The notes beneath the pieces were generated by a model. The model was given only the letters and a program-made list of their open reading frames with translations. It was not told where the DNA came from and did not search any database. Source: Hyaloraphidium curvatum (lineage: Eukaryota; Monoblepharomycota; Hyaloraphidiomycetes; Hyaloraphidiales; Hyaloraphidiaceae). From it: DNA of 64,000 nt. Each line of letters starts with the position of its first letter. The first letter of the stretch is position 1. A program made the translations under genes and the position numbers. The stretch lies in contig JAIVFI010000047.1 in the NCBI GenBank assembly GCA_025558095.1, forward strand, positions 42,421-106,420, in the 5' to 3' direction. Positions 5,338 through 63,186 of the stretch are shown piece by piece.

Positions 5338-6831
5338 ATGGCACCGCCGCCGTTCACGGCACGCGAGTGGGCGGCGCTCTTTCCCGCGCTGCCACCGGCG
5401 GCGGACGATGGGCTTGCGGCTAAGGCGGCCGACGGGTCCTCCGAGCCGAGCCGATTGGCGCAGGCCGAAGTGCTCGCTGCGCTGCCCAACGCCGCGCTGC
5501 GCGCATCTGTGCGGCTCTTCCCTGTTGCTTTGCGACTTTTCTCGCCATGGCGTGCGTTGGTCGTGTGGACGTCGCTGCCGACGACGGTCGTGGTGTCTCC
5601 GACCGCCGCACTGTTCGCGTTCGCGCGGGCCGACTTCGCCGGGCGGGCGTTCGGCGCCGCGCAGGTCGGCGTCGCTGTCGCCGCGCTCGCCGCGATGTCG
5701 CTCTCGTTCTTCGTGGCGCAGCGCATGGACGCGTTTGCTGCAGGCGCGGTCGCCGGCAACCCCGCCTCCGCCGACGACTACGCCGCGCACGCCATCGCAG
5801 GGCTGGTGCGCTGGCGGCAGCTGTGCGCCTCAGAGCCACAGAGTGCGCTCGTGCTGCACGTGGCGGGCGACGCGGACTGCCCGTGCCCCGGTTGCCTCCG
5901 GTCCGTGCTGCGCTCCGCCGCTGCCGCGTACTGGGTCGAGACCGCCGTCAAGGCTGCTGCTTCCATCGTATCTCTCTTCTTCGTCTTCTACTCGCCGTTC
6001 GTCACTTTTTCGCATGTATTTTGGCCGACGTGGTGGTGCGCCCTGCTCGGAATTGTCGGCTTCGTCGGAATGGGCTGGGGCCCTGTCACCTTCATCTTTG
6101 GCACGCACGGCCAGTCAGTGCCGGTGCTGGAAGTTGCAAAGAAACTGCACAAGCGTGCGATGGCGCTCGCACTGGATGTGGTGGCAGCGAACCTCGAGCT
6201 GCCCGAGGACGGAATGGCGGGACCGCGGCCGCCCGACGGCTCGGCTGCTGAACCCGAGCGCTCGATCGGTGCCGCGGCCCCCCGGCCACCTCACGGCTGC
6301 ACCGGTCCGCAGGGCACCCTCTACGCAGTGCTGCACGACCGCCTCGCGACCGCCTGGCGACGCCGCTCCGCCGCGGTCGCATACAGCGTCACCCGCCTCG
6401 TCGTCCACTTCCTCGGCCTCCTCTTCGCCGCCATCATCTCCGCCGCCGGCGCCTCCTGCATCCCCGCCTACGTCCCCCTTCTCGCGCTGTACCTCCTCCT
6501 GCAGCTCACCGCCGCCCTCGTCGTCCTCGCCGTCGCTAACTCCCAGATTGACGCCGTCGTGGACCTGTACGTCTCCACCCGCACTGCCCTCCGCCGGATC
6601 GCCGCCTCCTCCCTTGCCGTGCTCCCGAATCTGGAAGCGCACGACGCGCAGCTGGCGTTCTTTGCCTTGACGGCGGACAGGAGCCGCGCGAGGTTCGCGG
6701 GGGTCCCCGTTGGACTCGGGACCGCGAGAGCGGTTGTGGCGACTGTGGTGACCGTCGCGCTGGGGTTGTGGAGTCTGTTGAAGGGGGCGGGGTTGGCCGT
6801 CGTCGCGGACAACGTTTGTCCCGTGGTGTAG
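5338..6831 (+). CDS. Polytopic membrane protein, unnamed lineage family, copy 1 (intact)
   Basis: A 497-residue intronless frame. Near the N terminus is the family signature 'FTAREWAALFPALPP' (copy 2 has 'FSPEEWVCLFPAATPP'). About 7-8 hydrophobic segments follow: two before a hydrophilic loop, two near residues 205-260, two or three around 350-410 and one near the C terminus. The loop carries a Cys cluster 'DCPCPGCL', matched by 'FCPCSVCV' and 'FCPCSGCV' in copies 2 and 3. A conserved Trp pair (PTWWC, against STWW in the others) and the C-terminal end '..CPVV' / 'CPLVD' also align. I recognise no named family; function unknown. An alternative in-frame ATG at 5275 overlaps the hydrolase relic, so 5338 is preferred. 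Unlike copies 2 and 3 it has no introns. It converges on the hydrolase gene, which ends 68 bp away. Confidence 0.75.
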   Translation: MAPPPFTAREWAALFPALPPAADDGLAAKAADGSSEPSRLAQAEVLAALPNAALRASVRLFPVALRLFSPWRALVVWTSLPTTVVVSPTAALFAFARADFAGRAFGAAQVGVAVAALAAMSLSFFVAQRMDAFAAGAVAGNPASADDYAAHAIAGLVRWRQLCASEPQSALVLHVAGDADCPCPGCLRSVLRSAAAAYWVETAVKAAASIVSLFFVFYSPFVTFSHVFWPTWWCALLGIVGFVGMGWGPVTFIFGTHGQSVPVLEVAKKLHKRAMALALDVVAANLELPEDGMAGPRPPDGSAAEPERSIGAAAPRPPHGCTGPQGTLYAVLHDRLATAWRRRSAAVAYSVTRLVVHFLGLLFAAIISAAGASCIPAYVPLLALYLLLQLTAALVVLAVANSQIDAVVDLYVSTRTALRRIAASSLAVLPNLEAHDAQLAFFALTADRSRARFAGVPVGLGTARAVVATVVTVALGLWSLLKGAGLAVVADNVCPVV

Positions 6832-6899: not shown

Positions 6900-8253
6900 T
6901 CATTGTCGGATGTCGCAGCCTTCGGCATGGGCCTTGAGCACATAGGCCCGGTAGTCAAGAACATCATCCCGAGCTTCCATTTGCTCCACCAAATCCGCTT
7001 CCAGGTGCTTGTCAATGCCTCGCATGTTGAATCCGCCCGTGATCCACTGGTGCAGCACCATCCGTGGGGCATCCGTCCCAAAGTAAGAGTGACCTAGGAC
7101 GTCCTTGGCCGGATTTTTGACATCCACGTAGCGGATTCCTCGACAGACTGTGTGCTTTCCTCTGCCAAGGCGACGATGCCGAGTACCCCCAAGACCGTCA
7201 TTGATGAGGCTCCCTGAGACTATGAGGGCGAGGTCTGAGTAGGTTCCCATTACTAGGATGGGAGGTACTGTTGTCGACGATTGCAGCCTGGCATGCACGT
7301 CGGCCAAGTCCTTCACGAAAAGATCCTCAGAGACGTCTGGAGCCACGAATGCGACAGTGTTTGGGATGGTTTCGCCAGCAATCACCAGATCAAGGAGGAT
7401 TCTGCATCCCATGCTGTGGGCAAATGCATGCAGTTCCATGCCGTGAGAGTCAGTCCACCTCTTTAGCAGCTTCATGCATTCTTTTGCTCTTGGCAAAACA
7501 TGACGAGAGTTCTCTGAAGCCCGAGGATAGTTTGTCCACGGCATGAGCACACTGGTAAACTCGGATTCCCATGCAAATACGACTGGGATGTACTCGTCCA
7601 GGCAGCGGCACTCGACGAAGGAAGCCATCGTGTTCACAGCACCTTGGGCGGTGTTGTTGAACCCGTGGATGTAAACGACGACACCGCGGCAGCGTCTGAA
7701 CGCCTCAAGGGCCACCTTGGCATTCTCAAGGCAATCTAAAAAGCGGAGGTCACCAACGCGGGTAATGCGGAGATCCCGCTTGCGGTGGTTGTGGCCGGCC
7801 AAAACAACGTGGCCGTAGCGAAGGAAGTCGTCGCTTTCTGCTGCCGTCGGAAAGCTGTAGGCACCTTTGCCGGCAGGAGCATTTGGCAGTACGGGCCACC
7901 ACTTGGTTGTGACTAAGAAAAGGTCCCGGCGAGCTCGGTAGCGTTTGTAGTCGTTGAGATCCTTTCCAGCATAAGGATTAGGCTTCAGATTGGCGTCCAA
8001 TGCCACTGTCAGTATTGAAGTGTCAAGCCAGTTACTTGCGATAGACACTGCAGCGCCCAACTAACTTTCAGCTTTAGCATCCTGCTCCAGCAGAATCTTC
8101 GCGCTCTCGTTCCCGACAGAGAACACGTAGCCTTTCTTGTTGCAGGCGTAGCAGCCAACGACATTCAGGTCAGCTTCGAACTGGTCGTCCGCATCTAACG
8201 TCGCATGGATCTTTCCTCCACGGTGCCGCACGAGAGATGACTACTGGGAGCAT
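6900..8253 (-). CDS. Alpha/beta hydrolase of the bacterial-type DUF900 group
   Basis: The core reads 'GVVVYIHGFNNT' (oxyanion-side strand and HG motif), then 'IPVVFAWESE' and the nucleophile elbow 'LHAFAHSMGCRILLD', where Ser of H-S-M-G is the predicted catalytic Ser. A late His, probably 'LGHSYFG', could complete the triad. This spacing is that of DUF900/COG4782 esterase-like proteins, common in bacteria. The frame from 8060 has no ATG of its own near its start. A 60-nt intron (8006-8065, GTTAGT...GACAG) restores an exon starting MLPVVISLVRHRGGK at 8253, containing 'GCYACNKKGY'. The gene may even be continuous with the one at 8241-9137. Base composition is visibly less GC-rich than the surroundings. 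Substrate unknown; bacterial origin is inference. Confidence 0.72.
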
Positions 8254-10876: not shown

Positions 10877-13524
10877 ATGTCCGCGCCGCCGCCGATGGGG
10901 ATGGGCGGGCCGTCGCACCGCGCGGCGCCGGGCAACGCGGGCGGCGCCGTCGCGCAGCTTGCGGCCCACGCCGCGCAGCACGCGCCCGCGTCGCACCGGC
11001 TGCCCGAGCTGCTCGAGGCCATCAAGGCCGAGTTCCAGACGCTGGCAGACGAAATGCACGTCTACAAAATGCAGCGCGACGAATACGCCGAGAAATGTGG
11101 GCCCTCCTCCGGCTCTGCTTGCTGCCGCTGACTTGGTTTTTTCGCAGTCACGGCCCAGGTCAACGAGCTGAGCCAGATCCGCGGCAACCTGTTCGACCTC
11201 GAGCGGATCCACAACACGATCAAGCAGCAGTACGAGGAGGACATCATGCGGCTGCGCAGGGAGCTCGAGGCCGCCGGAATCAACCCCTCGGTGGGCGCGC
11301 GGCCGGGTGGCCCCCTGCCGCCCAAACCCGAGTTTGCTGGTGCGGCGCCCGCCCTGGGTGGTGCTGCAGGTGCGTCCCCCGCGCCGCACGAACTCGTCGG
11401 CCGCTGACCGTATCTCCATTTCACCAGGCTCCATTCCGGACTCGCTGCACCGCCCGATGGGGCAGCCTCCCGCGAACCAGTACATGAACGGCGGACCCCC
11501 TCCGCTCCCCCCCTCCTCCCTGCCCAGCATGGGTCCCGGCGGCACCCCTCCGCTCGGCAACCCCAACGACCCCAACAACCCGAACAAGCGCCTGCGCGGG
11601 CCCGAGGAGGGCTTCCCGAGGCCGCCGGGTCCGGGCACGCCGGGCGGCTCCCAGCCGTCGTCGTTCCCGCCGCCGCCGCGGCCGGGCGGGATGCCGCCTT
11701 TCGGGATGGATGTGAAGCCGCCTGGGCCGGGGCAGCCGCTGCCGAGTCTGAAGGATGGGCCCGGATTCAGGGGTAAGAGGGCTGCGGGACACCCCGGGGG
11801 ATCGGTCCCTCAATTTTGTGGCTTCCGCAGGACCGTCGACTCCCGGACCCGCTCCGCCTGGAGGCCTTCCATCCATGCAGGCATCAACTCCTCCCAGCAG
11901 CTCCGCTCCACTCGTAAGCAAGCAGCTTTTCGTTTCGTTGGACTGCCTCTCACCGCTTCGTCCAGCCCCCCTCCGCCGGCTCCGCCCCGCAGCCCACGAC
12001 CCCCGTCTCCGCCAACGCTCCCTCCAGCGCCGTATCGCAGCCCGTCACGGGCTTCTGCGAGCTGGATCCCGAAAGCGTGCCCGCGAATTACCGGAAGGAG
12101 GGCCCGGATTGGGTTGTTGTGTACAACCCGAAGCTGCCGCGGACGGTGAACGTGGAGCTCGTCCACAGCCTCGACCACCAGAGGTGGGTTGCTTTCCCGC
12201 GCGCGTTGCTCTGCCTCCTGACGCCTGCGCCCTAGCGTCGTCTGCTGCGTCAAGTTCTCGCAGGACGGCAAGTTCCTGGCCACGGGCTGCAACCGCGTCG
12301 CCCAGATCTTCGACGCCGTCACGGGTGCCAAGATCATGACCCTCGCCGAGGACTTCTCGCCCAAGGACGGCGACCTGTACATCCGCTCCGTGTGCTTCTC
12401 GCCCGACGCAAAGTACCTCGCCACCGGCGCGGAGGACAAGATGATCCGCGTGTGGGACATCCAGCGGAAGAAGGTCAAATGGGTGCTGCCGGGGCACGAC
12501 CAGGACATCTACTCGCTGGACTGGAGCAGGGACGGGCGCTACGTCGTCAGCGGATCCGGCGACAGGACCGTCAGGGTATGTCTGTCGGGACGCAGGCTCT
12601 GTCGAGGTGTGACAATACCGCACAGATCTGGGAGGTGGAAACCGGGCGTTGCCTCGTGACCATGATGAACGAGGACGACAAGACGATGAACCAGTTCCCG
12701 CGGACGCAGGCTACGTCCAAGGACTCGGGCGTGACGAGCGTGGCCATCAGCCCGCTCGATGGCCGTGTCGTCGCAGCTGTGGGTCTTGTCCGCCACGTTG
12801 TTAGCAACATCTAACATCCACTTTCAGGGCTCGCTGGACAAGATGGTCCGGCTGTGGGACGCGCGGACCGGGCAGCTTCTGGAGCGCTTCGACGGCCACA
12901 AGGACTCTGTCTACAGCGTCGCCTTCTCCAGTGACGGAAAGTCCATCGTCTCGGGCTCGCTGGACAAGACGCTCAAGATCTGGGACATCTCCCCCCCCGT
13001 CCTCTCCTACCTCGCCGCAACGGCGCACATCGACATGTCGGAGGACGGCCAGCCCCCCGACACCTTCCCGCGGTTCGAGGCCCTTGTCACCACCACGTGC
13101 CGCCACACCTTTGCGGGGCACAAGGACTTTGTCCTCAGCGTCGCGTACGGGGCCGTGTTCCCGTCACTGCCGCCGCAGAGCGAGGACGAGTGCCGCGAGT
13201 GGGTGGTGAGCGGGAGCAAGGATCGCACGGTTACGTTCTGGGACGCGCGAGGTAGGTCGTTTGCCGCTTGCCGCGCTTAACCTGGCGCTCAAACGCATCC
13301 TTGCAGGCCCGAGGGGACGGGATCCCGCGACGGTCACGCAGTTCATGCTCCAGGGTCACAAGAACTCTGGTGAGTGTTCTTGAGGCGTTTGCCTACCCTG
13401 GGTCTGACGATTTCGGACAGTTATTTCTGTCGCCCTGTCGCCGATCGGGGGAACGTTTGCCACGGGCTCCGGGGACTGGCGGGCCCGCATATGGAGGTAC
13501 TCGAAGCGCGAGGAGACCTCGTGA
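10877..13524 (+). CDS. TUP1: TUP1-family transcriptional corepressor
   Basis: The N-terminal helix ([20 protein letters not shown], then [20 protein letters not shown] and '[16 protein letters not shown]') is the fungal Tup_N tetramerisation and Cyc8-binding coiled coil. A Pro/Gly-rich linker of about 250 residues follows ([15 protein letters not shown]). Then come '[10 protein letters not shown]' and '[19 protein letters not shown]', typical of Tup1, and about seven WD40 repeats. Visible WD blades include '[20 protein letters not shown]', '[20 protein letters not shown]', '[14 protein letters not shown]' and the last '[13 protein letters not shown]'. At least seven short introns. It works in the nucleus with Cyc8/Ssn6, recruited by DNA-binding repressors. 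Stop TGA at 13522-13524; it is convergent with the Yip1-domain gene 110 bp away. Confidence 0.93.
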
Positions 13525-13634
13525 GCGGGACGCGGTCCAGGTCTTTCGATCATGGCAATCGAGGCGCGGGAGGAAACTAGTCTTGCCGTGCTCTGTAATT
13601 GGGTATATCGTCGGGAAAGAAACAACTACTCCCC

Positions 13635-14990
13635 TACATGAAGAGGAACGTGCTGTTGGTGTCGTTGCCCGGTGCTGGCGGCGGCGAGGGCGCCGGCTCA
13701 TCCGGCTGCCCGTCGTCCGGCGGCGCGCCGGAGTGCAGCACCACGAACCGGAAGAAAACGACTTTGAACAGCACGGCGAGGCTGAACTGCGCCAGAGCGA
13801 TGAAGGAGAGCACGAAGGTCGTTGCCCTCTTGTCCTCCGAGCGCGAAGTGATGGCGTGCGCGTTCCGCAACATGAACGCCGCAGAGAAGACAAATGCCAG
13901 CACGATAAGAACCCATCGGAAAGTTTCCGATGGGATGATAGAGAGGACCTGTTTCGCGCGTCAGCGACGCCACGGGAACCAACTCGGCCGAAACTCACGG
14001 ATACGGGGATCCAGATGAACATCCCGTACCCGTAAATCATGACCAGCTCCAGGAGTTGTGCTGGTGCCGACAGCCAGCGACACAGTACCCAAACTATCAA
14101 CGGCACCAGGAATGCGTAGAGGTAGCACGTCGTGGTCGCAAACGACAGCAGGGTAAAGTCATACTCCAGCGGCTGGCCCCCGATGTACGACACGATGTTG
14201 TTTGCAATCGATGTCGTCACAAACAGGGCAAAGATGACGGTGGTTGGGATCCAAAAAGGTCCGTAGAGCTCCAGGTTGTTCTCCACAAGCTCCAGAAAAG
14301 AGCCCCTCGGGGCAAAGGTCGCCGAAATCCGTTTCAGTACCTGATTTCGCAGTTTTGTAGCTAGCCCACAATAGCAACAGAAGACGGCAACAATACCTGG
14401 TCGGAATCGACGTCGAACCATTGCTGGTAATATTCAATGTTCCAGAAGGAAGCATTCGACGACTCGGCGGACGCGTTCGCCTGGGTTGCCGTAAACGCGT
14501 ACGCGGCTGAAGACGGAACCGAGATCAGAATAAGTTTTGAGTCGCAGAGCTCCAAGCCGACACCGCGGGCCAGAGCAGTGCCACGCGCGCCGGTCCGTGG
14601 GGATCCGTGAGGAACACCCACCTCCCGAGCCCGTCGACGCCCCATTCTGCCCTCCAGCAACTCCACCGCCACCGCTCGCGCCGATTGTCGTACCTTGGCC
14701 ACGGGAGGGGCCGCTGTTGTCCGACAGGACAAAGTCTGAGCGACACGGGACCCAGGCCTTGGTGAGCAACAGAGAAACCAGGGCAGGAATGGCGGTCCCC
14801 ACTTTGAAACTGAAGCTCCTGCTCGGCCGTGCTCTGCATTCGGGGAAAGCAACGAGCCGACGGGCGCGTTGAATTGGTTGAAGTGATACTCCTTGAGTTG
14901 CCAGCTCTCCGGGCCCATGCCGCCACCGTGCCCCACCGAGAAATCGAGAATTGAATCCTGTTTGCCGTTTCCGGCAGAGGATCCGGCCAT
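13635..14990 (-). CDS. Yip1-domain membrane protein (YIPF1/2-like)
   Basis: Conserved core: 'FWNIEYYQQWFDVDSDQ' joined by a short intron to 'VLKRI', then 'ELYGPFWIPTTVIFALFVTT', 'LEYDFTLLSFATTTCYLYAF', 'PLIVWVLCRW' and 'LVMIYGYGMFIWIPVS'. After another intron follow 'VLIVLAFVFSAAFMLRNAHA' and a last hydrophobic segment, giving five membrane spans. The C terminus is a Pro-rich tail ending FLFM. This is the Yip1 family of Golgi/ER membrane proteins that act with Rab GTPases in vesicle traffic. The N-terminal exon begins MAGSSAGNGK at 14990; introns between about 14560 and 14900 are not fully resolved, so the first 100 residues are uncertain. Confidence 0.82.
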
Positions 14991-17935: not shown

Positions 17936-20028
17936 CTAGTGCGTGAACAACCGCGTGCTGGTAAAGACGAGAACCATGCCGTTGTCGTTTGCGGCATCAA
18001 TGACGACCTGGTCGTTGACCGAGCCGCTCGGTGCCGCGACATAGTCCACGCCGGACATCTTTGCCCGTTGGATATTGTCCGAGAAGGGGAAGAAGGCGTC
18101 CGAGGAAACAACCACGCCCGAGAGTTTCTTCTTCCACTCCTTCTTCTCCTCGGCCGTCAGCAGATCGGGCACCGAGGCCGGGTTGAACAGCGCCTGCCAC
18201 GCGGCGAGATCCGTGATCTGGTCCGTGACGTAGAGATCGATGGCGTTGGCACGGTCCGGCCTCTTGACTTCCTTCTTGAAATCAAAGGCCAGGACCTTCG
18301 GGTGGTGCCGAAGCCACCAGTTATCGGCCTTGTCGCCGGCCAGACGGGTGCCTGAATGAACGAATGGTCAAAGCTTGAAAAAGAATGCAAGCCGCGACCG
18401 CTCACAGTGAATGCGGCTCTGCTGCCCGGCGCCCAATCCGATCGTTTGGCCGTTCTTGGCGTAGCAGACCGAGTTGCTCTGCGTGTACTTGAGAGCGATC
18501 GTAGCCACGATGAGATCACGTAGAGCGTCCTCTGGGATCTCTTTCTTGGCCGAAACAACGTTGGTGAAGAAGCTCTTCCCGATCTCGAGGTCGTTGCGAC
18601 CCTGCTCCAGGTACATTCCGTAGACCTGGCGGACCTCCCTCTTTTCCGGGACGTACGACGGGTCCATCTCCAAAACGGTGTACTTTCCGCCCTTCTTCTT
18701 CTTCAAAATCTCGAGCGCCGCCGGTTCGTATCCAGGAGCAATGATACCGTCCGAGACCTCGCGGGAGATGATCCTTGCGGTAACGACGTCGCACTTGTCG
18801 GAAAGCGCGATCCAGTCGCCGAAGGAGCTCATGCGGTCCGCACCCCTGGCGCGAGCGTAGGCGTTGGCGAGCGGGGTGAGCTCCGCGGCGAGATCCTCCA
18901 CAGCATAGACGTCCAGCTCCTCCTTCGAGAGCGGGACACCAACGGCGGCGCCGGCGGGAGAAACGTGCTTGAACGAGGCAGCAGCGGGCAGGCCGATCGC
19001 GGCCTTCAGCTCCTGCACCAACGGGTACGAGTTGAAGGCATCAAGGAGGTTGATGTAGCCTGGGGAGCCGGCGAGCACTGAAGAAAGGTGTGAATTGGGG
19101 GGACAAATGAAAGGAATCGACGAGCTCACCTTTGAAGGGCAGCTTTCCGTGCTTAACGTACACGCTGGCGGGCTTCTGATGCGGGTTGATGCCGTAGCGG
19201 AGCGGCTGGAACTGCTCTCCTGCCGCGTACTGGCCCCTGAAGTACCCGCTAATGGCCGTGTCGTAGTCTGAAGTCTGAGTGAACGCTTTCAGGGCAAGGG
19301 TCTTCCTCGTGGCCTCCGAGATGGTCTTGTTCGCCTTCAGCTCGGTGAGGAAGCTGGCGTAGTCCGCGGGGTCCGACAGAATTGTGACACGAGCGTGGTT
19401 CTTGGCAGCGGCACGGAGAAGCGTGACGCCGCCTACGGAAAGCTAAGTCGGGAGGAAGAAACAGCGCTTGACAAGGAACCAACCGATATCAATCTCCTCG
19501 ACCGCCTCCGGGATGGTGACACCCTCCTTTGCCACGGTCTTTTCGAACGGGTAAAGGTTGCAGACCACGTAATCGATCTTATTGTAGCCACGGGCCGCCA
19601 TGTCGGCGTTGTCAGAGGGAATGTCGCGAGCGAGAATTCCTGGTGACCGCAAAGAATTCCAATCAAACACATGGAATGTTTCCTTCAGTAATCCATCAAC
19701 GTACCGCCGTGGACAGCGGGGTGGAGGGTCTTGACACGGCCTCCCAGCATCTCCGGCGCCTGGGTGATGTCGGCGACATCGCTGACCTCCAATCCCGCGT
19801 CCCGGATGGCTTTCGCGGTCCCTCCAGAAGCAATGAGCCGCACACCGCACTCGGACAGGCCCTTGGCCAGGTCCAAGAGGCCGGTTTTGTCCGAAACGGA
19901 CAGGAGCGCTGCGGTCCCATTAGTTCCCACGCGAGTCCCGGAATCGCGGCGCGGAGACCAGTCAGACGCTGAAAAAATAGAATTCTTGCCGAGAGCGTCG
20001 TACCGTAGGATCCCTGCTGCGAAGCCAT
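17936..20028 (-). CDS. ADE17: Bifunctional AICAR transformylase / IMP cyclohydrolase (ATIC)
   Basis: Performs the last two steps of de novo IMP synthesis. The N-terminal MGS-like cyclohydrolase half reads '[18 protein letters not shown]', '[15 protein letters not shown]', '[16 protein letters not shown]', '[18 protein letters not shown]'. The transformylase half reads '[14 protein letters not shown]', '[15 protein letters not shown]' (catalytic K-H), '[14 protein letters not shown]', '[20 protein letters not shown]', '[13 protein letters not shown]', '[12 protein letters not shown]' and '[11 protein letters not shown]'. Full length, about 590 residues, with five or so short introns. The first exon is only MASQQGSY, 25 nt, joined across an intron to ALLSV. 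It is divergent from MSH5 with 133 bp between start codons, so the promoters must overlap. Confidence 0.95.
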
Positions 20029-28257: not shown

Positions 28258-31200
28258 ATGCATCTCGCCAGCGCCGCCCGCCGCGCCGCCGGGCTCGTCT
28301 TGCGGGCGCGGCCGAGTGCCGCCCCGCTGCGTGCCGCGGCGGCGCCCCGCGCCGCGCCCTGCCGCCTCCGCCCGGCGCGCGCGCTCGCCACGGCGGCGCC
28401 CGGCCAGGACGCGTTCGCCAACGGCACGAGCGCCGCGGTCCTCGAGAGCATCTACGACTCGTGGCGGCAGAACCCGGCGTCGGTGCCCGCAGACTGGGGC
28501 GCGTACTTCAACGCGCTGGAGAGCCACCAGTTCGTGGCGGTGGCTCCCGGCGTGCAGGTCGCCGCCCCGGAGGCCGTGGTCACCCCGAAGCTGCTGCAGG
28601 AGCAGGTCAAGCGTGCGTGGACCCCCACCGCGCCCGCATCGCCGCTGAAACGCCCCCCCTCCCAAGTGATGGAGCTCATCCGCTCGTTCCGCGTCTTCGG
28701 CCACCTGTCGGCCAACCTCGACCCCCTGGGCCTGTGGAACCGCCCGCCCTACGCAGAGCTGGACTACAAGTTCTGGGGATTCACCGAGGCGGACCTGGGC
28801 CGCAAGTTCTTCGTCGGCGCGCCGCTGGCCCCCGGAGGTGGGTCCCCGCGGGGTGGCGCACCCCCGGCACGCCCTGACCCCGAACGGCAGACGGGTGGTT
28901 GACCCTCGGGGAGATCGTGGACAAGCTCAAGTACACGTACTGCAGCACCGTGGGCGTCGAGTACATGCACATGCAGGACGTGGCGCGGAAGGACTGGATC
29001 CAGAAGAAGGTGGGCTGTTCTGCCCCGCTCCGCCTTTTCATAAGTAACGCGCCCCCCAATTTAGCTCGAGGAGCGCGCGCGCACCTTCACCCCCGAGAAG
29101 AAGAAGATGATCCTCGCGTGGCTGACCTGGGGCGACAAGTTCGAGAGCTACCTGGCCAAGAAGTACCCCTTCACCAAGCGCTTCGGCCTCGAGGGCGCCG
29201 AGTCGCTGATCCCCTGCCTCGAGGCCATCCTCGAGCGCGGCACGGAGCTGGGCATCGAGACGGCGATCCTGGGGATGCCCCACCGCGGGCGGCTCAACGT
29301 GCTGGCCAACGTGATGAAGAAGCCCATGTACAAGATGTTCGCCGAGTTCGAGGACAAGAAGGGCACGCAGAACAACGAGGACGTCGAGGGCTCCGGGGAC
29401 GTCATGTACCACCTGGGCGCGTCGACGGACCGCGTCATGGCCTCCGGCAAGGAGATCCACCTCTCGCTCGTGTCGAACCCGTCGCACCTCGAGGCCGTGA
29501 ACCCCGTGGTGATCGGTAAGACGAGGGCCAAGCAGTTCTGGGACGACGACTACATGTTTGAGAAGAGCATGTCGATCCTGATGCACGGTGATGCTGGTGG
29601 GTCTCGTCCTCGCCGTCAGTGAACGCGGTTGCTGATGGGCATTTGTCTCGAACCCACAGCCTTTGCGGGCCAGGGCGTGGTGGCCGAGACCATCAACCTC
29701 AACGACCTGCCCGACTACACCGTCGGCGGCTGCATCCACATAGTCGTCAACAACCAGATCGGCTTCACCACCAACCCCAAGTTCTCGCGCTCCTCGCCCT
29801 ACCCCACCGACATCGCCAAGGGCTTCCAGGCCCCCATCTTCCACGTCAACGGTGACGACCCCGAGGCCGTGGTGTGGGCCGCCGAGGCCGCGATGGACTT
29901 CCGGCAGACCTTCCGGGACGAGGTCGTGATCGACATCTTCAGCTACCGCCGGCACGGCCACAACGAGATCGACGAGCCCATGTTCACGCAGCCCATCATG
30001 TACAAGAAGATCGCGCGGACGCCGTCGACGCTGGAGCAGTACCGCGAGACGCTGCTCAAGGAGGGCACCTTTGACCAGGGCACCATCGCCGAGGTCGAGG
30101 CCAAGTACATGGCCCTCTGCAACTCGCAGTACGACATGACCTCCCAGGCCGCGTACGAGCCCCCCTCGGACTGGCTCAAGGACTCGTGGTCGGCCATGCT
30201 AAAGCCGTCGCAGCTGGCCACGCGCCAGGAGACAGGCGTGCCGACCGAGGTGCTCAAGGAGGTCGGGATCATGGCCACGGACGTGCCGAGCAACTTCCGC
30301 CCGCACCGCAAGATCCAGCAGATCTACGACGCCCGCCGCAAGATGTACCAGACCGGCAAGGCGCTCGACTGGGGCGCCGCCGAGACGCTCACCTTCGGGT
30401 CGCTGCTCAACGAGGGCTACCACGTCCGGCTGTCGGGCCAGGACTGCGAGCGCGGCACCTTCTCGCACCGGCACGCGGTCATCTACGACCAGGAGACCGA
30501 GGCGCGGCACTGCGCCCTGGCCAACATCAGCCGCAAGCCCACGGGCATGTCCAACTTCACCGTCGTCAACTCGTCGCTGTCCGAGTACGGCGTCATGGGC
30601 TTCGAGTACGGGTACTCGCTCGAGAACCCCAACGCCCTGGTCATCTGGGAGGCGCAGTTCGGCGACTTCGGTGGGCTCCATCCTCGCGGTGCCGTCGTTG
30701 GCGCTGTGTCTGACTTTCGTCCAGTCAACGGCGCCCAGATCATGATCGACCAGTTCGTCTCCTCGGCCGAGCACAAGTGGTACCGCCAGTCCGGCCTCGT
30801 CCTCCTCCTCCCCCACGGCTTCGAGGGCCAGGGCCCCGAGCACTCGTCGGCCCGCCTGGAGCGCTTCCTCCAGGCCGTCAACGAGGAGCCCACCGAGTTC
30901 CCCGAATACGACAGCCTGGACCCCGCGGCCATCTCGGCGACGCTGATGAAGCAGACGCAGAACATCAACATGGTCGTGGCCAACCCGACGACGCCGGCCA
31001 ACCTGTACCACCTGCTCCGGCGGCAGGTCCACCGCATGTTCCGCAAGCCGCTGGTCATGATGAGCCCCAAGTCTCTGCTAAAGGCCCCCTACTGCGTGTC
31101 GGACCTGGAGGAGTTCGGCCCGGGCAAGCGCGTCATGAACGTGATCCCCGACCAGCTCCCGGACCTCGTGGACGGGGACAAGGTCCGCCAGGTCATCTTC

Positions 31201-31705
31201 TGCACGGGCAAGGTGTACTACGACCTCACCAAGGCCAGGGACAAGAACTCCTTCAAGGTCTGGCTCATCTGCCCGCCGTCAGAGGCTGCTCGTGCTGACC
31301 TTTCCCGCTCAGGACGTCGCCATCGTCCGCATCGAGCAGCTCTCCCCCTTCCCCTTCCTCCACGTCCTCATCGAGATGAACAAGTACCCCAACGCCGAGC
31401 TCGTCTGGTGCCAGGAGGAGCCGCGCAACCAGGGCGCGTGGTCCTTTGTCCGGCCGAGGCTGCTGCTGACCAAGACCGAGTCGGCGGGCAAGCCCGCCAT
31501 CGAGATCGTGGGTCCCTCCTAGCGAGCCGGTGCCGGACCCCGCTCATCGCGCTCCGCCCCATTCTAGCGCTATGCTGGCCGCGCGCCCTCCGCTGCGCCG
31601 GCCACGGGCTCCAAGAAGAAGCACTACGCCGAGCTGGAGGCCTTTGTCCGGGACGCGTTCGGCAAGAGTGAGGACCCCAAGTGGAAGGGGCTGGACTACA
31701 TTTAG
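28258..31705 (+). CDS. KGD1: 2-oxoglutarate dehydrogenase E1 component
   Basis: Thiamine-diphosphate decarboxylase of the mitochondrial 2-oxoglutarate dehydrogenase complex. The N terminus is an Arg/Ala-rich mitochondrial presequence ending near '[11 protein letters not shown]'. Domains in order: '[17 protein letters not shown]' (E2-binding region), '[20 protein letters not shown]', '[18 protein letters not shown]', '[13 protein letters not shown]', [12 protein letters not shown] (ThDP site, split by an intron), '[14 protein letters not shown]' and '[20 protein letters not shown]'. The transketolase-like pyrimidine-binding domain follows with '[17 protein letters not shown]', and the C-terminal domain has '[10 protein letters not shown]' and '[12 protein letters not shown]'. 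The last exon ends '[10 protein letters not shown]'. At least seven introns of 45-70 nt. Full length, about 1000 residues. Confidence 0.96.
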
Positions 31706-36172: not shown

Positions 36173-37828
36173 ATGGAGCGCGTGACCCGCTCTTCGGAGA
36201 GCCGCGGGGGCGTCGGCACACGGCGCGCCGCGGCGGGCGCGGGTGCGCTGAACTCGCCCGTGGACTTCTCTCTCGAGTCTGTCGCTGCCGCCCCGCTCGC
36301 CCAGCTGCCGCCGCGGCTCATCGCCCCGGGGCCGATGGCGGGAAAGAATGTGCCGCAGTTTCTCTCCAAGCTCTTCAAGTGGGCCGGGTTGCGAACCCCC
36401 GCGCGGCTCCTCTGACACCGGGCCGAATCTCCGCAGCATGGTCAACGACCCCAACTCGGACAACCTGATCCACTGGAGCGAAGAGGGAAACTCGTTCATC
36501 GGTAGGAAGCGCGGCTATCGTGGCCCCGCCCCCCTCTGACCCCGGCCGCAGTCGAGAACCCGGACGAGTTTGCCCACGAGATCCTCCCCCGCTTCTTCAA
36601 GCACTCGAACTTCTCCTCCTTTGTCCGCCAGCTCAACATGTACGGCTTCCACAAAGTTCCGCACCTGCAGGCCGGCGCCCTGCTCCCTCCCCAGGAGGCC
36701 GAGCTGGCGACAGAGTTTGCCCACCCGCACTTCCTCCGGGACCAGCCCGAGCTGCTCTCGCTCGTCACGCGCAAAAAGGGGAAGGAGGAGGACAATCCGC
36801 AGGCCTTGTCGCCCGGCTCGTCGCTCGAACTGTCGACGCTGATCCAGGAGATGGCCGGCATCAAACGGCACCAGTTTGCGATCCAGAACGACCTCCAGAC
36901 GATGCAGAAGGCGAACCAGGAGATGTGGGCGGAAACGGAGAGCCTGCGGGCGCAGTACCAGAAGCAGCAGGAGCTCATCGAGAAGATCATCCAGTTCCTG
37001 GCCTCTGTGTTCCAGTCGAAGACTGGCCTGGGACAGGGGAAGCGGCGGAAGCTGGTCACGGGCGTGGCGCTGACGGACGACGACGACGACGAGGATGACG
37101 AGAACGCAGCCAACGGGATCGAGGAGATTCTGCAGCTGAGGCCGGAACCTGAGCAGCACGTGCATTGTGGGTGCTCTTGGAAGGGGCGTCTTCCTCACGA
37201 CTCTAAACTGCTTCAACTTGCAGCCGCGCGGCAAGGTCCCATCATTCTGCCCTTCAACGCCCCTTCACCCGCTGGCTCGAGCTCGTCCACCTCGAGCGCC
37301 GGCGCTTCCGCTCCCGCCGCCCGCAAGATCTCCGAGGCCAAACCCCCGTCTGCCGCCAAGGGCAAGAAGAAGGGCGCTGCATCTCCCGAACCGACGGAAA
37401 CCATCAACGGCGGACCCAGCACTCCCCCCGGGCCGGCTTCCGACGCGGTGATACCGCAGTCGACCGCCGCCCTCTTCAACCTCCCTCTGGCCTCGCTCGT
37501 CGCACCCCCTCCGACGGAAGCCATCGGCAACCTCTCCAAAATGGCGTCCAACATCGATCTGACCAAGGGGAGCGCGGATGCGCTGTCCAAGGACATTGAG
37601 AACCTGGAGCACTCGCTGGCCAACGTCCAATCGGCGCTCGGGGTCGACTTGGACGGCGGGAACATGGACCTTGACCAGTACCTGCAGCAGCACGACTTCG
37701 GCGGGACCGAAGAAGACCAGGCTGTGCTCCTGAAACTGTTGCAGGATCACCCGGACCTCTTTCTTACCCACGGCGTGGCACCGAAAACGGAGGACGAGGA
37801 GGATCCGATGAGCTTTTTGGACGTCTGA
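36173..37828 (+). CDS. HSF1: Heat-shock transcription factor
   Basis: The HSF-type DNA-binding domain is split over three exons: 'NVPQFLSKLFN' - 'MVNDPNSDNLIHWSEEGNSF' - VENPDEFAHEILPRFFKHSN then 'FSSFVRQLNMYGFHKV'. A coiled-coil trimerisation region follows (AGIKRHQFAIQNDLQTMQKA, 'SLRAQYQKQQELIEKIIQFL'). A basic patch 'GKRRKLV' and an acidic run come next, then a Ser/Pro-rich region and an acidic C-terminal activation-like segment ending DEEDPMSFLDV. It binds nGAAn repeats at heat-shock promoters. Introns are short; the first ends in CAG directly before the CATGGTCAAC exon. Confidence 0.94.
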
Positions 37829-38694: not shown

Positions 38695-39174
38695 GTTGTC
38701 GCGGGCAGCGTTCGCAGTAGGTTGCGACGGGTTGCGAAGTGGGAGGGGATCGAGGGACGCCGCGTCCCTGTCCTTGGGCCTGGACCATCGCCGCCCGCAT
38801 GCAGAGGGATGCAGGGGAACGCGAAAGCATCATCTCCCGCCGTCTTCCAGCCCCCATGACAAGCTCCCGCCACTGAGTTGGACCCGCGACGGGCGCTCCG
38901 AGTCACGGACGCTGGCCGGCGCGCGGAGGTTTGGGGACTGCGCTGACCGGGCGGCTCATGGTCCCTCGCGCGAGAACCGGATCTGGCTTGCCGCCGTTCC
39001 ACCTTCGAACCATCGTCGAGGACCGAAGTTGCGATCCTTGCATGGAATCATCGCACGCGACGGTTTCGTTTGCAATGACGCGTCTATCCGTTCGCGCTGC
39101 TTCGAGTCGGCATCGCAGAGAAACATACACTTGTGAATACGCCAACAGAGGTCTTTACAACAGCCCGGCCACCA
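38695..39174. other. Spacer between the two tandem secreted-protein genes
   Basis: Both neighbours are on the minus strand, so this holds the promoter of the left one and the 3' UTR of the right one. No gene or repeat recognised. Confidence 0.5.
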
Positions 39175-39831
39175 TCAAATGCAGTCATACTTCTGAATAC
39201 CGCACCCGGCCTTGCTCCACGTGTGCATGTTGCCCGTGGTGTTGACGTGGCTCCGGATGGCCGACTGGAGCATGCAGTCGAGAGTGTTGCCGGACCAGAC
39301 GAAGCCGGTGCACTGCACGTTGGCGTCGCACGCGGCCTGGCACAGCGCGGCCGAGTTCTTGGTCCCCGCGTAGACGAGCCCGTCGGCGCTGCAGACGTTG
39401 TCGCCCGTGCCGCACTCCTCCCACACGGGGGCGTAGCGCCGGTACAGGCCCGCGCTGCGGGACACGGTCTCCGAGACGCAGGCAACCTGGCCCTCGGGGG
39501 TGCCGGGGTACGCGAACTCGCTGCAAGGGAACGGTCGCCGCGGGGGGGGGGGGGGGGGGGGTCAGCTGCTGATGGGGACCAGTGCGGTGCTGGCGCCCAC
39601 CAGAACGATTTGGAATCGCAATCGGTGCACGAGCGCTTGAACACGGCGCCCGGGGTAGGCGATGCCGTGATCAGGCTGATCAGGGGACCGCGACGGGAGA
39701 GGGCGAGGGAGCGCGAGCGTGGATGGCGCCGGCGTCAGCTTCCCGCCGCGCGCTGCGCGGGGCGCGGGGCGCGGGACCCACGGCGCGGCAACGGCGAGCG
39801 CGGCGATCAGCAGGCAGGGAAGCGTCCTCAT
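39175..39831 (-). CDS. Secreted protein with TPEGQV head module and PAN/apple-like tail
   Basis: Signal peptide MRTLPCLLIAALAVAAPWV. Head module 'ITASPTPGAVFKRSCTDCDS' and 'KSFCEFAYPGTPEGQVACVS'. Tail 'VWEECGTGDNVCSADGLVYA', 'AALCQAACDANVQCTGFVWS', 'GNTLDCMLQSA', ending 'AGCGIQKYDCI'. The tail spacing (C-x-x-A-C-x-x-x-x-x-C-x-G-F) is like PAN/apple domains, which bind proteins or glycans. The head is split exactly at TTCTG/CGAG by an intron that contains a run of about 20 C on the coding strand (39542-39561). A second intron near 39760 separates the signal exon. Function unknown, extracellular. Confidence 0.65.
39542..39561. repeat. Homopolymer of about 20 G (intron of secreted-protein gene)
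   Basis: A single unbroken G run (C on the transcribed-sense strand) inside the intron of the gene at 39175-39831, where a pyrimidine tract would be expected. Its exact length is likely to vary or to be misread. Confidence 0.9.
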
Positions 39832-40667
39832 GGCTTGGCGCGCGGCGGCTGCGGCAACTTTCGATTCCGAGTGTGAAATGTGGGGTCGAGGGACTCGGTG
39901 TCCCCTGGCCTCGGCCTCTGCGGCGGCGGCACCGAATTGCCGCCCGCATCCCCACAAGGATGGAGGGGACTACAAAAGTGCCCGTGGCCGAGGAATCCCA
40001 CCTCCAGAAGAAGTCGCAAGCTCCCGGCTAGCAGATACGCACCCAAGATGAGCGCTCCGATGCATATGCTCTCACCGGCGAGCGTGGCTGGCACTTTGAG
40101 GGCCGTTCTGCTCGGGCGGCCCTGGCCCCAATGGCGCCGGCACGAGATCCGAATCAGCCTCACGCTGCTCGGCCCTTCAGTGTTTGACGATCTCAAGGAT
40201 TTCGTTTCGCGCCATATTGGCGAGGAAGAGCATTTGCTGGGAAGGGAATCATCGACTGCGAGGTGCGAAAGAGATCCAGAAACCTCGCGCGCCTAAGGAA
40301 TAGAAGATCACGATGGAGGACTCAGGTTCTATAGGTATCGCCTGCTTCTGATGTGGGTTTATGGTCCAGTTTAGGCCCTCAAACGGAAGCTCGAAGATGC
40401 GCACGAAGGATGTTGACTCGTTAGACCGCACCGGAGCATCGAAAGCTGAAGAGCCTGCGGCCATGATACTGTCCAGCGTGTTGTAGATAAATCACCTCCT
40501 TCGTCGGAATGATTTCGGCAAGAGGAATGTTCCTTCTCGCTGTAGTCCTGAGGCACGTCCTGCGGTCGGCGGCGAATCGACGCGCCGACCAAACTTCCAC
40601 AGCGCGAGACGTCCGAGGTTTACCCTCTTGTTGATCGTCGGTCGGAAGAGAATATCAGGCTCGTGCC
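39832..40667. other. Spacer with two short unrecognised frames
   Basis: A plus frame beginning MSAPMHMLSPASVAGTLRAV near 40048-40296 and a minus frame (40249-40464) with 'ESTSFVRIFELPFEGLNWT' overlap here. Neither resembles anything I know. The minus one has hydrophobic-aromatic composition unlike random GC-rich sequence and could be an exon or relic. Confidence 0.3.
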
Positions 40668-42333
40668 ATGAGTGGAGAAAGCAAGCCCGCCGCCGCCGCC
40701 GCCGCCGCAATGGGCGTCCCCGCACTCCAAGACCCAACCTCTGCTGCCTCTCACGGCGACCCGAGCGCGCCGCACGGCGACCCAAGCGCGCCGGACGCCG
40801 ATTTCTCGCCCGAAGAATGGGTGTGCCTGTTCCCCGCCGCGACGCCGCCGTTCCGGCCGCTGCTGCAAGACGAGGAAGCAGGGGAAGCGGGGGGCGACCC
40901 CGCGGCCGAGTTCCGAGGAGCGCACCCCGTGACGTTCGAAACCATGCTGGCCGACTTCGACGACCCCGTGCTCCGAATGTTCGCTTTTCTCTCCGCGTCT
41001 CCGACCGCGAGCTTCCTGGGCTGGAGGACCACAGGACTTACTGGACTCTCCGAGTGCTTCATGCTGGCATTCCAGGGGCTGGCATGGGCGTGGAACGACG
41101 GCCGTTTCGGAACCAAACAGATGGCGGTGGGAATGGCTTCCCTGGCTATCATTGCCTCTATCGGCTTCGGAACTTTCGTTCTCTACGCCCTCGCCGTTCC
41201 CAGGGTGCCCAAGGTGCTCGATTTTTCCGCCCCGGCGGTGCTCTGCAGATGGCTGCAGCTGACGAGGAAGGAGGGAGGGGGGAAACCTGGAGCACCGGTC
41301 AATGCTGGAGCCCGCAATCTCGTCGCGCACGAAGAGGGTGACCGTTTCTGTCCGTGCTCTGTCTGTGTCGGCAACATCCAGCAGCTTGCAGCTTGTATGA
41401 CCTTCTTGGACATCGTTCTCAACTTCCTCGTTGGATTTTTCTGGGTATGGACTCCAGGTTGGACTGCACTTGTTACATATGGAGCCCAGCTGTGGTCCAC
41501 ATGGTGGGTTGCGTTCTCGGAGCAATCTACGGTTAGTGGCCTTGGCGTCGAGTGCTTCTGTTCACTCATCGCCATCTGCTTTGCAGCTTGCGCTTCGCTG
41601 GCGTACTTCAGGAACTGTGCTTGTCGCTTCGTTGGCATAGCCAACATTGCTTACGCTAGGCTTGAAGCAAGGCTGCACCATCGTGCTGTCTATGAGATCC
41701 ATGCTGGAAACTGTGCTCAACGGACGCCCGAACAGGCAGGGACCGTGGTTGTACGTTCGCCTGCACCACAGCTTTGCTGCGTGGTGCAAGACGCGGGAGA
41801 TCCAAGACCAAGCCATCGTCAGTAAATCGATGTTGGTCATCTTTTTGCCTTCGGTCGTCATTGCGATCGTTGTCAATGTCGTGAGTGGTTGGGACAGGGA
41901 ATCGAGCATCCGGGGTGCTGACGCTGCCGCCATCAAACAGGCGGCCGGATCCTGCGTCACTGCCTGGCTCCTCTTCGTCACCGGCTTGGTCGTCGTCTAC
42001 ATGCTCATCAACGCCATCAACCTCGCCTAGCGCAACAACCTCATCTCCGTCGTCGCATCGGCATACCACGATGCCCGGCGGGACCTCCGCACGGCGTGCC
42101 TCAAGCTCGGACCGACCCCTCTCGCCGCCGCGCTGGAGCAGCACGACCGCGTCATTGGCTCGTTCCTCGAGGTGTCGCGGTACAGCGCCAAGATTCTGGG
42201 GTTCACCGTCACCTACGGAGGCGTGCGGACCATGGTGGTCACGATGGTGACCCTCTCTGTGGCTCTGTGGAGCGTGTTCAGGTCTCTGGGGGTGTTCTTC
42301 ACGATGGAGAGCTTCTGTCCTTTGGTTGACTAG
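40668..42333 (+). pseudogene. Membrane-protein family copy 2, broken
   Basis: Starts MSGESKPAAAAAAAMGVPAL, with the family motifs 'DFSPEEWVCLFPAATPPF', 'APAVLCRWLQLTRKE', 'DRFCPCSVCVGNIQQLAACM' and 'STWW'. Against copy 3 it has lost one G near 41507 (TGGTGGGTT for TGGTGGGGTT). It has also lost 8 bases near 41690 (GCTGTC-TATGAG for GCTGTCGTCCTCTCCATGAG). It carries TAG instead of TCG at 42028-42030 inside 'NAINLASRNN'. Introns at about 41526-41580 and 41881-41940 match those of copy 3. With normal splicing the first deletion gives a stop soon after the intron. Retention of that 55-nt intron would restore the frame for 35 codons only. Sequencing errors could explain one but hardly all three lesions. 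Confidence 0.75.
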
Positions 42334-42411
42334 GAGGTGGAGCCAAAGGTGGCAAGAATCGCGATCGCCGCGCCGTCTATTCCGCCTCCGGCTCAGAGCT
42401 TCACCTTGGGA
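42001..42411 (+). repeat. Near-identical dispersed tract shared by family copies 2 and 3
   Basis: The last exon of copy 2 plus about 75 bases past its stop codon are almost the same as the reverse complement of 62770-63186. By eye about 8 mismatches occur in the 330 coding bases; the tail (AGCCAAAGGTGGCAAGAATC and onward) is nearly unchanged apart from an insertion of about 10 bases in copy 3. Upstream exons are far less alike. This pattern fits a conversion tract or very recent partial duplication rather than an old whole-gene duplication. Confidence 0.8.
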
Positions 42412-43752
42412 TCGTCGCAGCTCACCTTCCACTTCCCTTGGCGGTCCCACTCCATCCCCGTGATCCCGCCCGGCGTGCCGGGCTTGCTGCTCCCGTACGA
42501 GAGCACCAGGCGGTGGTGCGAGTCGGCGGGGGTGCCCTTCTCCGTGGCCGAGTGGAGGGCGTCGCCGGGGAGGACAGCGACCTGGCGTGTGGGCAGTCGC
42601 GTCAGAAATGGAAACGGGGAAAGGAACGGGGCAAGTACCGTGTGGTCGCCGTCCTTGTAGAACTCGGGCTGGAACGCGGCGCGCTCGAAGGGCGTGCGCT
42701 CCTTCTTGCCCTCCACGAAGGGGCGGAGGTGCGACGCGGTGGGGTAGAACTTGGCCAGCTCCGTGAGCTGTCCGCAAAGTCAGCGACGGCAATCCCGGCA
42801 GGAACAGCGGACATCGAACCTGGTAGAACTGCGGCGGGAACATCCGCACCTCCCCCTTGTTGAACTTGTCCAGCGCCTCCTGCGGCGTCATCCACGTCAG
42901 GCTCAGCGTCTCAGTCCCATCCGCCGACGTCGTCCTCGAGTGCGCGCGGCCGATGGGGTACGGCAGGTACGTGAGGAAGAACTGGGTCCGGAACCGCTTG
43001 TGCTCCACGGTTGGCGTGTTCCAGTTGGCCCAGTGCACGAGGCGCCCGACGTCGGGGGCCATGCCGGTGCCTTCAAAGACCTTAGGGAAGGTCGGCGCCG
43101 AGGCATGGACCTCCTTGCGGATCTCTTGCAGGCCGCTGTCGGTCAGGGAGGTGGGGCGGCGGGGGTAGCTGAGCAGCAGGCCGACCTCCTCGAAGCTCTG
43201 GGTCGGACGTCAGTCCACAGGTCCTTGTCGGCCCAGAAAGGGGGAGAAAACCGACCTCCCGCACGGCTCCGATGTAGTACTCCAGCCCGACGTCGATCCC
43301 GTCCCCATTGGTCTTGCGGTTCAGCACGGCCTCGGCCTCGGCCTTCGGCACACCGTTGCGCTCCCACGTTTCCAGCAGCAGCTTCCGCCACAGCGGGTCC
43401 GAATCCACGGGCTCGATCGCGCCGCCTTGGCGGGGGAGACGTTTCAGCCCGGAACGCGGCGCCACAGAAAACGCGTCCGCCCACCGGGGTACACCGTCAG
43501 CCCGCCAAACGGGCCGCGCTGTGCGCGCTGGATCATCAGCACCTTGTACTTTTCGGGGTCCGCGCCCTCCTCGCTCGCGCAGACGATGAGCGACGCCGCC
43601 GGCTTGAGCGGCGGCGGGTTCGAAGGCGGGGTGCGCAGGAGCTCGGCCATGCCGCGGGCGGGGTTCCGGGAAGAAAGAAGCGAAGCTCGGAGGGGCGAGA
43701 GCGCGGCGGAGGCCGGGATGCGCGCAAGGAGGAGGGGGACACCGCGGCTCAT
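42393..43752 (-). CDS. NUDT19-like nudix hydrolase (acyl-CoA/CoA diphosphatase)
   Basis: Reads 'AASLIVCASEEGADPEKYKV', 'LMIQRAQRGPFGGLTVYPGG', then 'DAFSVAP', 'LLLETWERNGVPKAEAEAVL' and the nudix box joined across an intron as 'YIGAVREVSFEEVGLLLSYP' (R-E-x-x-E-E-x-G-L). A C-terminal part typical of NUDT19/RP2 follows: 'FLTYLPYPIGRA', 'LTWMTPQEALDKFNKGEVRM', 'FPPQFYQ', 'HHRLVLSYG' and the end 'CDDPKVKL'. These enzymes split CoA and acyl-CoA in peroxisomes or mitochondria. The N terminus, Arg/Ser/Ala-rich, could be a mitochondrial presequence; VKL at the end is a poor PTS1. Five exons. The 3' end abuts the duplicated tract of copy 2. Confidence 0.82.
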
Positions 43753-62082: not shown

Positions 62083-62439
62083 CGTGTTTGCCGGGGGTTC
62101 GGGTTCGATCAGGTGCTACGATGGGTGGCACTGCTCTGGCGGCGGGTGCCCGCAACAATTCGTCGGACTCCGCCCGGTCAGGTGCACGCGGCCGGCCCCG
62201 CGGCGCCCCTCTATTCACACAGTAGCCTTCTCGATGGTCCATTCGCACGTTTGCAATCTATCCCGCCCTTTCCCCGGCGCTTCGCCGGCCAGAAACGAGG
62301 GAGCTGCCGGGGGTGTCGAACCACGCGCTGACGCACAGCCACCACGCCCGGCGCACATGGCCCCGCTCACGGCAGGATTGTCCAACCCAACCGCGGACCT
62401 GCCCCGCACTATGCCGGCAGCTATGTTCCTCTCGGGACT
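62083..62439. other. Spacer upstream of the kinase gene
   Basis: Contains the promoter of the minus-strand kinase gene. No gene recognised up to the R3H relic that follows. Confidence 0.4.
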
Positions 62440-62650
62440 ATCGTTTGGCCGCGATTGGCCTCGCCGGACTGCCCGTAGCGGCGGCTTCCTTCGCTCGGGC
62501 CCGAAGGCACAGCACCGGCCACCCCGCCGACACCCCCGGTACCCGCCGATCCAGGCCAGGGCCTGACCTGACCTCGAACGAGAGGTCCGTGCTGCACCGC
62601 TTTCCACGTGGAGCGCCGGGGTGGGCGCGGGCCGGGAGCCGGAGGGGAGA
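62440..62650 (+). pseudogene. Decayed fragment of the R3H-protein gene
   Basis: The stretch CTGACCTCGAACGAGAGGTC at 62569-62588 with the following GTGCTGCACCGCTTT matches CTGACCTCCAACGAGCGGGC ... GCGCTGCACGGCTTT of the gene at 59569 (codons L-T-S-N-E-R-x-x-L-H-x-F). Upstream words CGTTTGGCC and GCTTCCTTCGCTCGGGCCCG, and downstream ACGTGGAGCG-CGGG, occur in the same order. About 28 bases between the two conserved parts are missing, so the frame is lost. Similarity is limited and short, hence the moderate confidence. Confidence 0.45.
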
Positions 62651-62769
62651 CCCGCCCTGCCAGGTGATTCGGCGAGCCACCGGCAGATGCACGGCGACCG
62701 CAAGCTCGGGACCTTTTGCTTTTGCTTTGTTCATGTTGCTTGATCCTCTTTGCAAATGCTGCAACATTC

Positions 62770-63186
62770 GATGTCAGCTGTGAGCCGGAGGCGGAATAGA
62801 CGGCGCGGCGATCGCGATTCTTGCCACCTTTGGCTTCATTACACGGCCACCTCCTAGTCAACCAACGGGCAGAAGCTCTCCATCGTGAAGAACACCCCCA
62901 GGGATCGAAACACGCTCCACAGAGCCACAGAGAGGGTGACCATCGTGACCACCATGGTCCGCACGCCTCCGTAGGTGACGGTGAATCCCAGAATCTTGGC
63001 GCTGTACCGCGACACCTCGAGGAACGAGCCAATGACGCGGTCGTGCTGCTCCAGCGCGGCGGCGAGAGGGGTCGGTCCGAGCTTGAGGCACGCCGTGCGG
63101 AGGTCCCGCCGGGCATCGTGGTATGCCGATGCGACGACGGAGATGAGGTTGTTGCGCGAGGCGAGGTTGATGGCGTTGATGAGCAT
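62770..63186 (-). repeat. Second member of the near-identical tract (copy 3 side)
   Basis: Inverted relative to the member at 42001-42411 and about 21 kb away. It includes the last exon of copy 3 and the 3' flank with GCCAAAGGTGGCAAGAATCG. At this end the match stops shortly after CGCCTCCGGCTCA. Confidence 0.8.

Follow-up and report, generated by a model that had tools for sequence, protein, structure and literature searches.

A large orphan family of seven-span membrane proteins in Hyaloraphidium curvatum, possibly a chemosensory-type channel repertoire

Introduction

Here, we report that Hyaloraphidium curvatum, an early-diverging fungus, carries a large orphan family of membrane proteins that is real and under selection, with hundreds of loci in its genome. 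Our best reading, held tentatively and at slightly less than even confidence, is that the family constitutes a repertoire of chemosensory-type seven-helix channels built like the 7TMICs, membership in that superfamily being unproven. By 7TMIC superfamily we mean the insect ORs and GRs, the animal and protist GRLs, and the plant DUF3537 proteins.

Results

The family is dispersed through the genome in hundreds of loci

The stretch analysed, hereafter the window, comprises 64,000 nucleotides (contig C47, positions 42421-106420) of a 31.9-Mb genome in 55 contigs. A genome search with one window member, copy 1, matched 113 places, and a search with exon 1 of a second member, copy 2, matched 138, while consensus queries for the C-terminal and N-terminal halves matched at least 150 places each; for both halves, the weakest place among the matches listed still has E < 1e-17. 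Merged by position, the matches define at least 296 loci with protein similarity, or 326 when motif-only sites are included. Specifically, the motif CPC-x4-CAG occurs at 181 genomic sites, compared with 5 for the reversed control motif. Crude mark-recapture gives 225-457 loci genome-wide and 174-245 loci for contigs C1-C20, on which 55% of the observed loci lie. The total is roughly 300-450 copies, a figure that stands for an order of magnitude only, since the searches depend on one another and parts of the genome are assembled in duplicate. The loci are dispersed, with a median gap of 26 kb, and most members in the 72-member alignment are 25-35% identical to copy 1. The original prediction had proposed a large expansion from the three copies in the window, which the whole-genome count bears out with hundreds of further copies.

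Three copies in the window differ in their state of preservation

Three homologous copies had been proposed in the window, and a profile derived from 25 members of the genome-wide family recovered each of them in its six-frame translation.

5338-6831, + strand: copy 1, intact and intronless, 497 amino acids plus stop TAG (frame reading, profile match)
40668-42333, + strand: copy 2, a two-intron pseudogene with an in-frame TAG at 42028-42030 (alignment, twin comparison)
62857-64000, - strand: copy 3, which leaves the window at its end and has two introns and +1 frameshifts at 63870 and 63912 (profile match, twin comparison)
41990-42330 (+ strand) and 62857-63200 (- strand): the ~98%-identical ends of copies 2 and 3, respectively (by eye)

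Copy 1 matches the profile with an E-value of 6e-144, the exons of copy 2 with 1e-45, 2e-33 and 3e-10, and those of copy 3 with 3e-44, 3e-17 and 5e-8; no further family member was found in the 64 kb by this search. Copy 1 is a single open frame of 497 codons that runs from the ATG at 5338 to the stop TAG at 6829-6831, and its best genomic paralogue shares 44% identity with it over 476 residues. Copy 2 is a pseudogene, because its lesions (deletions of 1 nt and 8 nt plus the in-frame TAG) recur identically in a twin on contig C17, whose 3.8-kb surroundings differ by one homopolymer base. Copy 3 also has a twin on contig C17 (locus L033), to which it aligns over 1.8 kb with 0 substitutions; the window has four additional C's, and two of these disrupt the frame (63870 and 63912) as CCC/CCCC differences. 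Because the two sequences differ in homopolymers only, the frameshifts are probably assembly errors, and we rejected the view that copy 3 is a pseudogene; the sequence of this contig does not suffice to declare it dead. In an alignment judged by eye, the final ~340 bp of copies 2 and 3 show ~98% identity, with far lower identity upstream, and this shared 3' end appears to be a recent conversion or unequal exchange tract.

Two sampled stretches of the window, ~39167-43004 and 62202-64000, recur on contig C17 at ~636-662 kb with 0 substitutions and homopolymer-length differences only, and probably represent an uncollapsed haplotype or a very recent segmental copy. Family matches of equal score occur in the contig pairs C30/C48 and C40/C46 as well. 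The window as a whole has a GC content of ~65%, and the following other features lie in it.

6903-8060, - strand: DUF900 hydrolase
13396-14433, - strand: Yip1 domain
18371-19288, - strand: AICAR transformylase
29623-31668, + strand: 2-oxoglutarate dehydrogenase E1
36506-37825, + strand: heat-shock-factor DNA-binding domain

Between 52000 and 60500, GC reaches 72-74% and overlapping open frames of 300-1965 codons fill both strands; these are likely low complexity rather than genes. Elsewhere in the genome, chitin synthase 2 has several strong matches, and a type-1 rhodopsin gene whose helix sequence looks fungal lies at loci L103/L104 (contig C15, ~695.4-695.8 kb), with no guanylate cyclase noticed beside it in the listed reading frames; both findings speak for a fungal genome.

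Seven spans, a predicted cytosolic N-terminus and an invariant cysteine framework

Conservation and topology were derived from 72 intact members, namely those of the 100 loci read in which a single frame encodes the entire protein. Alignment-averaged hydropathy resolves seven spans, so that of the 7-8 first suggested the seven stand and the eighth falls away. Their positions in copy 1, together with the conserved sites discussed below, are as follows (all on the + strand).

5350-5388: N-terminal FxxxEWxxLFPA motif of copy 1, residues ~5-17 (P16 invariant and E10 at least 90% in 72 members)
5557-5622: TM1, residues ~74-95 (averaged hydropathy)
5659-5727: TM2, residues ~108-130 (averaged hydropathy)
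5857-5895: H174, C181, C183 and C186 in the cytosolic TM2-TM3 loop, a putative zinc site (conservation; metal inferred)
5932-6003: TM3, residues ~199-222 (averaged hydropathy)
6025-6096: TM4, residues ~230-253, with a predicted cytosolic run-on to ~284 (hydropathy; helix 232-284 in a low-confidence model)
6385-6450: TM5, residues ~350-371, with a predicted helix start in the cytosol at ~324 (hydropathy; model helix 324-370)
6457-6459: Cys374 in the outer TM5-TM6 loop (72/72)
6466-6534: TM6, residues ~377-399, with a predicted extension to ~422 (hydropathy; model helix)
6613-6684: predicted TM7a-like cytosolic helix ahead of TM7, residues ~426-449 (model, pLDDT ~70-75 in the TM4-TM7 model)
6724-6795: TM7, residues ~463-486, the most conserved part, RTxxxTxxTVxxGLWSxLRGxGV (alignment)
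6817-6819: Cys494, predicted disulfide partner of Cys374 (72/72)

The inner segments are long (N-terminus 87 aa, loop 2-3 78, loop 4-5 77 and loop 6-7 67) and carry 8-10 K/R each. The outer loops 1-2, 3-4 and 5-6 measure 8, 7 and 5 aa; together with the C-terminus, the outer segments have 5-10 aa and 0-0.6 K/R. Because K/R are confined to alternate segments, a count by the positive-inside rule over the 72 members clearly predicts a cytosolic N-terminus and a C-terminus outside. The placement of the cysteines agrees with this orientation, in that the metal-type cluster falls on the inner side and the lone invariant pair on the outer side.

Seven residues are invariant in 72/72 members (P16, H174, C181, C186, C374, G455 and C494), and C183 (71/72), D178, R158, R273, N401, R464 and T472 are nearly so. 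The knuckle formed by H174, C181, C183 and C186 probably binds zinc, and a disulfide is predicted between C374 and C494 on the outer side. The cysteine cluster first described as C-P-C-x-x-C is corrected to H-x6-C-x-C-x2-C, or H-x6-CPC-x4-CAG in many relatives. The W-W pair noted in the three copies is not a conserved feature; the form shared by the family is W-x-T-x-W-x-A.

Probable repeated intron loss in a family under purifying selection

Family introns sit at two fixed positions, the first in TM4 and the second, ~47-64 nt long and in phase 0, directly before GSCxP (between TM5 and TM6). In the window, the following were located.

41881-41940, + strand: intron 2 of copy 2, ~60 nt, phase 0, GTGAGT...CAG (alignment, homologous paralogue intron)
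63247-63310, - strand: intron 2 of copy 3, 64 nt, phase 0 (alignment, twin L033)
63617-63676, - strand: intron 1 of copy 3, in TM4, boundaries approximate (profile match, alignment)

Of the two matching introns claimed for copies 2 and 3, the second is firmly placed and shared with many paralogues; the first, in TM4, holds as well but is less exactly placed. In a tree of 95 members, a sample that favours intronless genes since full-length frames were preferred, the intron-bearing genes are scattered, with 8 label changes, at least 4 of them forced by starred branches. The economical reading is an ancestral gene with two introns that would have been lost repeatedly, in keeping with the earlier suggestion that introns were gained or lost as the family spread. 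Additionally, dN/dS is 0.19-0.39 in 15 close intact pairs, and these are therefore maintained genes under purifying selection.

No match to the families tested

Pfam scans of copy 1, of 25 members and of 72 members returned scattered chance matches only, an NCBIfam scan of copy 1 found no family, and PDB sequence searches with one protein and two profiles gave chance matches only. Within Pfam (72 members), NCBIfam (copy 1) and PDB sequences, the claim that the protein belongs to no known family is thus borne out, and none of them yielded a clear match to a transporter or channel family. Specifically, the Pfam families 7tm_7, 7tm_6 and DUF3537 matched 0/72 members, whereas the control Gr43a was found at once. 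In hhalign comparisons of family profiles with Orco and with Gr43a/Gr9 (local, global and C-terminal halves), the probability stayed below 1%, as against 56-77% for the positive control GR versus OR. Pfam 7tm_7 had no match in this genome, and control genomes were likewise without a match, which leaves this search uninformative. HlyIII (PAQR) was absent from the hmmscan of the 72 members at E up to 10, Pfam GPCR families had no match in the same members, and prokaryote and virus collections held no relatives.

Comparison with insect-type receptors

The criteria used in screening for GRLs include seven TMs, an intracellular N-terminus and longer inner loops (Benton 2020, PMC7746228). The family is alike in its seven spans, its predicted N-in/C-out orientation and its inner loops of 78, 77 and 67 aa against outer loops of 8, 7 and 5 aa. 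AlphaFold models, built on window rows only, are of low confidence (pLDDT 49 for the whole protein and 58 for TM4-TM7); in them, TM4, TM5 and TM6 extend into the cytosol as helices of 53, 47 and 51 residues, and a separate 24-residue helix precedes TM7. This predicted layout resembles that of BmGr9, in which S4, S5 and S6 measure 52, 53 and 45 residues and are followed by S7a and S7b (PMC11100771). Searches of the same low-confidence models with Foldseek and VIA-align returned coiled-coil, BAR and ABC-hairpin matches only; that OR and GR are missing from them carries no weight at this model confidence. Covariation in 95 sequences is mostly noise, and the shuffles carry no control for relatedness. 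The top pair links H333 to Y411, in the cytosolic extensions of TM5 and TM6, respectively, and scores just above the highest value from 30 shuffles; the second, L14-L270, connects the EWxxLFP helix with the TM4 extension and surpasses the mean, but not the highest, shuffle maximum. Covarying pairs of GRs fall mostly within the anchor (PMC11100771).

The TM7 motif (T/S)Yhhhhh(Q/K/E)(F/L/M) has been called diagnostic, though not definitive, and the published chytrid GRLs keep 1/4 of its positions (PMC7746228). In the family, T is present in 71/72 members, the Y position is V/L/I/A, the Q position is S/T/G and the last position is V/I/L/M. In animal GRLs, the TM7 exon is immediately preceded by a phase 0 intron, whereas the family introns lie in TM4 and between TM5 and TM6; intron evidence is uninformative in unicellular GRLs (PMC7746228). 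The TM2-TM3 loop also differs, with 78 aa in the family against an S2-S3 gap of 5 aa in BmGr9 (helix bounds, PMC11100771). Distinct from the 7TMICs, the family has a His-Cys3 insert in this loop, an invariant outer cysteine pair and an LRG motif at the end of TM7; a cytosolic His-Cys3 knuckle is not described in the cited insect receptor literature. Large expansion inside one genome is common to the family and the insect receptors. In the two surveys cited here, fungal insect-type chemoreceptors amount to only one GRL each in two Spizellomyces chytrids (PMC7746228, PMC9998090), SpunGRL1 and SpalGRL1 (PMC7746228), so that hundreds of copies here compare with one per fungus there, the chytrid GRLs being compared by description only.

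Discussion

The family shares the layout of a 7TMIC and may function in the same way, and we do not file it as a member. We count in favour of a 7TMIC-type reading the seven-span topology with its inward K/R bias and long inner loops, the cysteine placement that agrees with it, the predicted helix lengths, the H333-Y411 pair between the TM5 and TM6 extensions, and the T of the TM7 motif in 71/72 members. Hundreds of diverged, selected copies with birth and death also fit a receptor repertoire. We count against it the absent OR/GR kinship, the replaced Y and Q in TM7, the intron places, the long TM2-TM3 loop and the low confidence of the models.

The main rival is convergence, namely that the topology arose in a seven-helix family unrelated to the insect receptors, an orphan receptor, channel or lipid/metabolite handler whose knuckle recruits a partner. 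The lack of profile kinship with tested Pfam, NCBIfam and PDB families, OR and GR included, argues for it, as do the long zinc-type TM2-TM3 insert and the family-specific LRG motif and outer cysteine pair; against this, few families combine a seven-span N-in/C-out architecture with extended inner loops and very short outer ones, and in predicted helix length the family is similar to GRs. We regard convergence as a substantial possibility, though a doubtful one. The PAQR or adiponectin receptor-like proteins likewise have seven spans, N-terminus in, C-terminus out, and a metal; the family differs from them in that its invariant His and Cys lie in a cytosolic loop instead of the membrane core, and Pfam found no such match in the 72 members.

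It is improbable that the repertoire serves self/non-self or partner recognition (allorecognition, or a host or prey surface) instead of small-molecule sensing: the hundreds of copies, the pseudogenes, the conversion-like tract in copies 2 and 3 and the repeated intron loss would suit such a role, yet outer loops of 5-8 residues offer almost no surface for protein recognition, and the averages in close pairs (dN/dS 0.19-0.39) are purifying. An unusual GPCR class would account for the seven spans and the receptor-like expansion, but is very unlikely given the inverted topology indicated by charge bias and cysteine placement, where a GPCR would have its N-terminus outside, and the lack of a Pfam GPCR match. 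Fungal GPCRs (Ste2/Ste3, Pth11-like) are alike in their seven spans and sensing role and differ in their opposite topology and the lack of a sequence match. That the family is a mobile-element product or an assembly artefact can be set aside almost entirely. Copies are indeed dispersed (median gap 26 kb), and the near-identical contigs C17 and C47 mark places assembled twice, but members are mostly 25-35% identical to copy 1, retain two ancestral introns, are under purifying selection and bear no element-type domain.

Based on the preferred 7TMIC-type reading, we propose that the family comprises several hundred fungal seven-helix proteins of the chemosensory ligand-gated-channel type, whose plasma-membrane location, tetrameric channel assembly and ligand sensing are suggested by analogy. 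The subunits, predicted to have the N-terminus inside and the C-terminus outside, would admit a small ligand into a pocket among TM1-TM6, the outer domain being almost absent. The cytosolic extensions of TM4, TM5 and TM6, together with the pre-TM7 helix, would form an anchor joining the subunits, and TM7 would line the pore. The cytosolic His-Cys3 knuckle, probably zinc-binding, may stabilise or couple the cytosolic side, whereas the predicted C374-C494 disulfide would tie the end of TM7 to the outer TM5-TM6 loop. Paralogues would differ in the small molecules that they answer.

If so, this fungus would have evolved, independently of animals, ~300-450 7TMIC-type channel genes and pseudogenes with a zinc knuckle and an outer disulfide, among the largest such sets known outside animals, a proposal that we put forward with slightly more reserve than the best reading itself. 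If the family is unrelated to 7TMICs, it would still be noteworthy as a new seven-helix family of comparable size with N-in/C-out topology. The family offers fungal sequences and a history of introns and paralogues for testing the age of the 7TMIC fold. Hundreds of conserved, receptor-shaped genes outside the tested family libraries make a strong candidate chemical-sensing repertoire in an early-diverging fungus.
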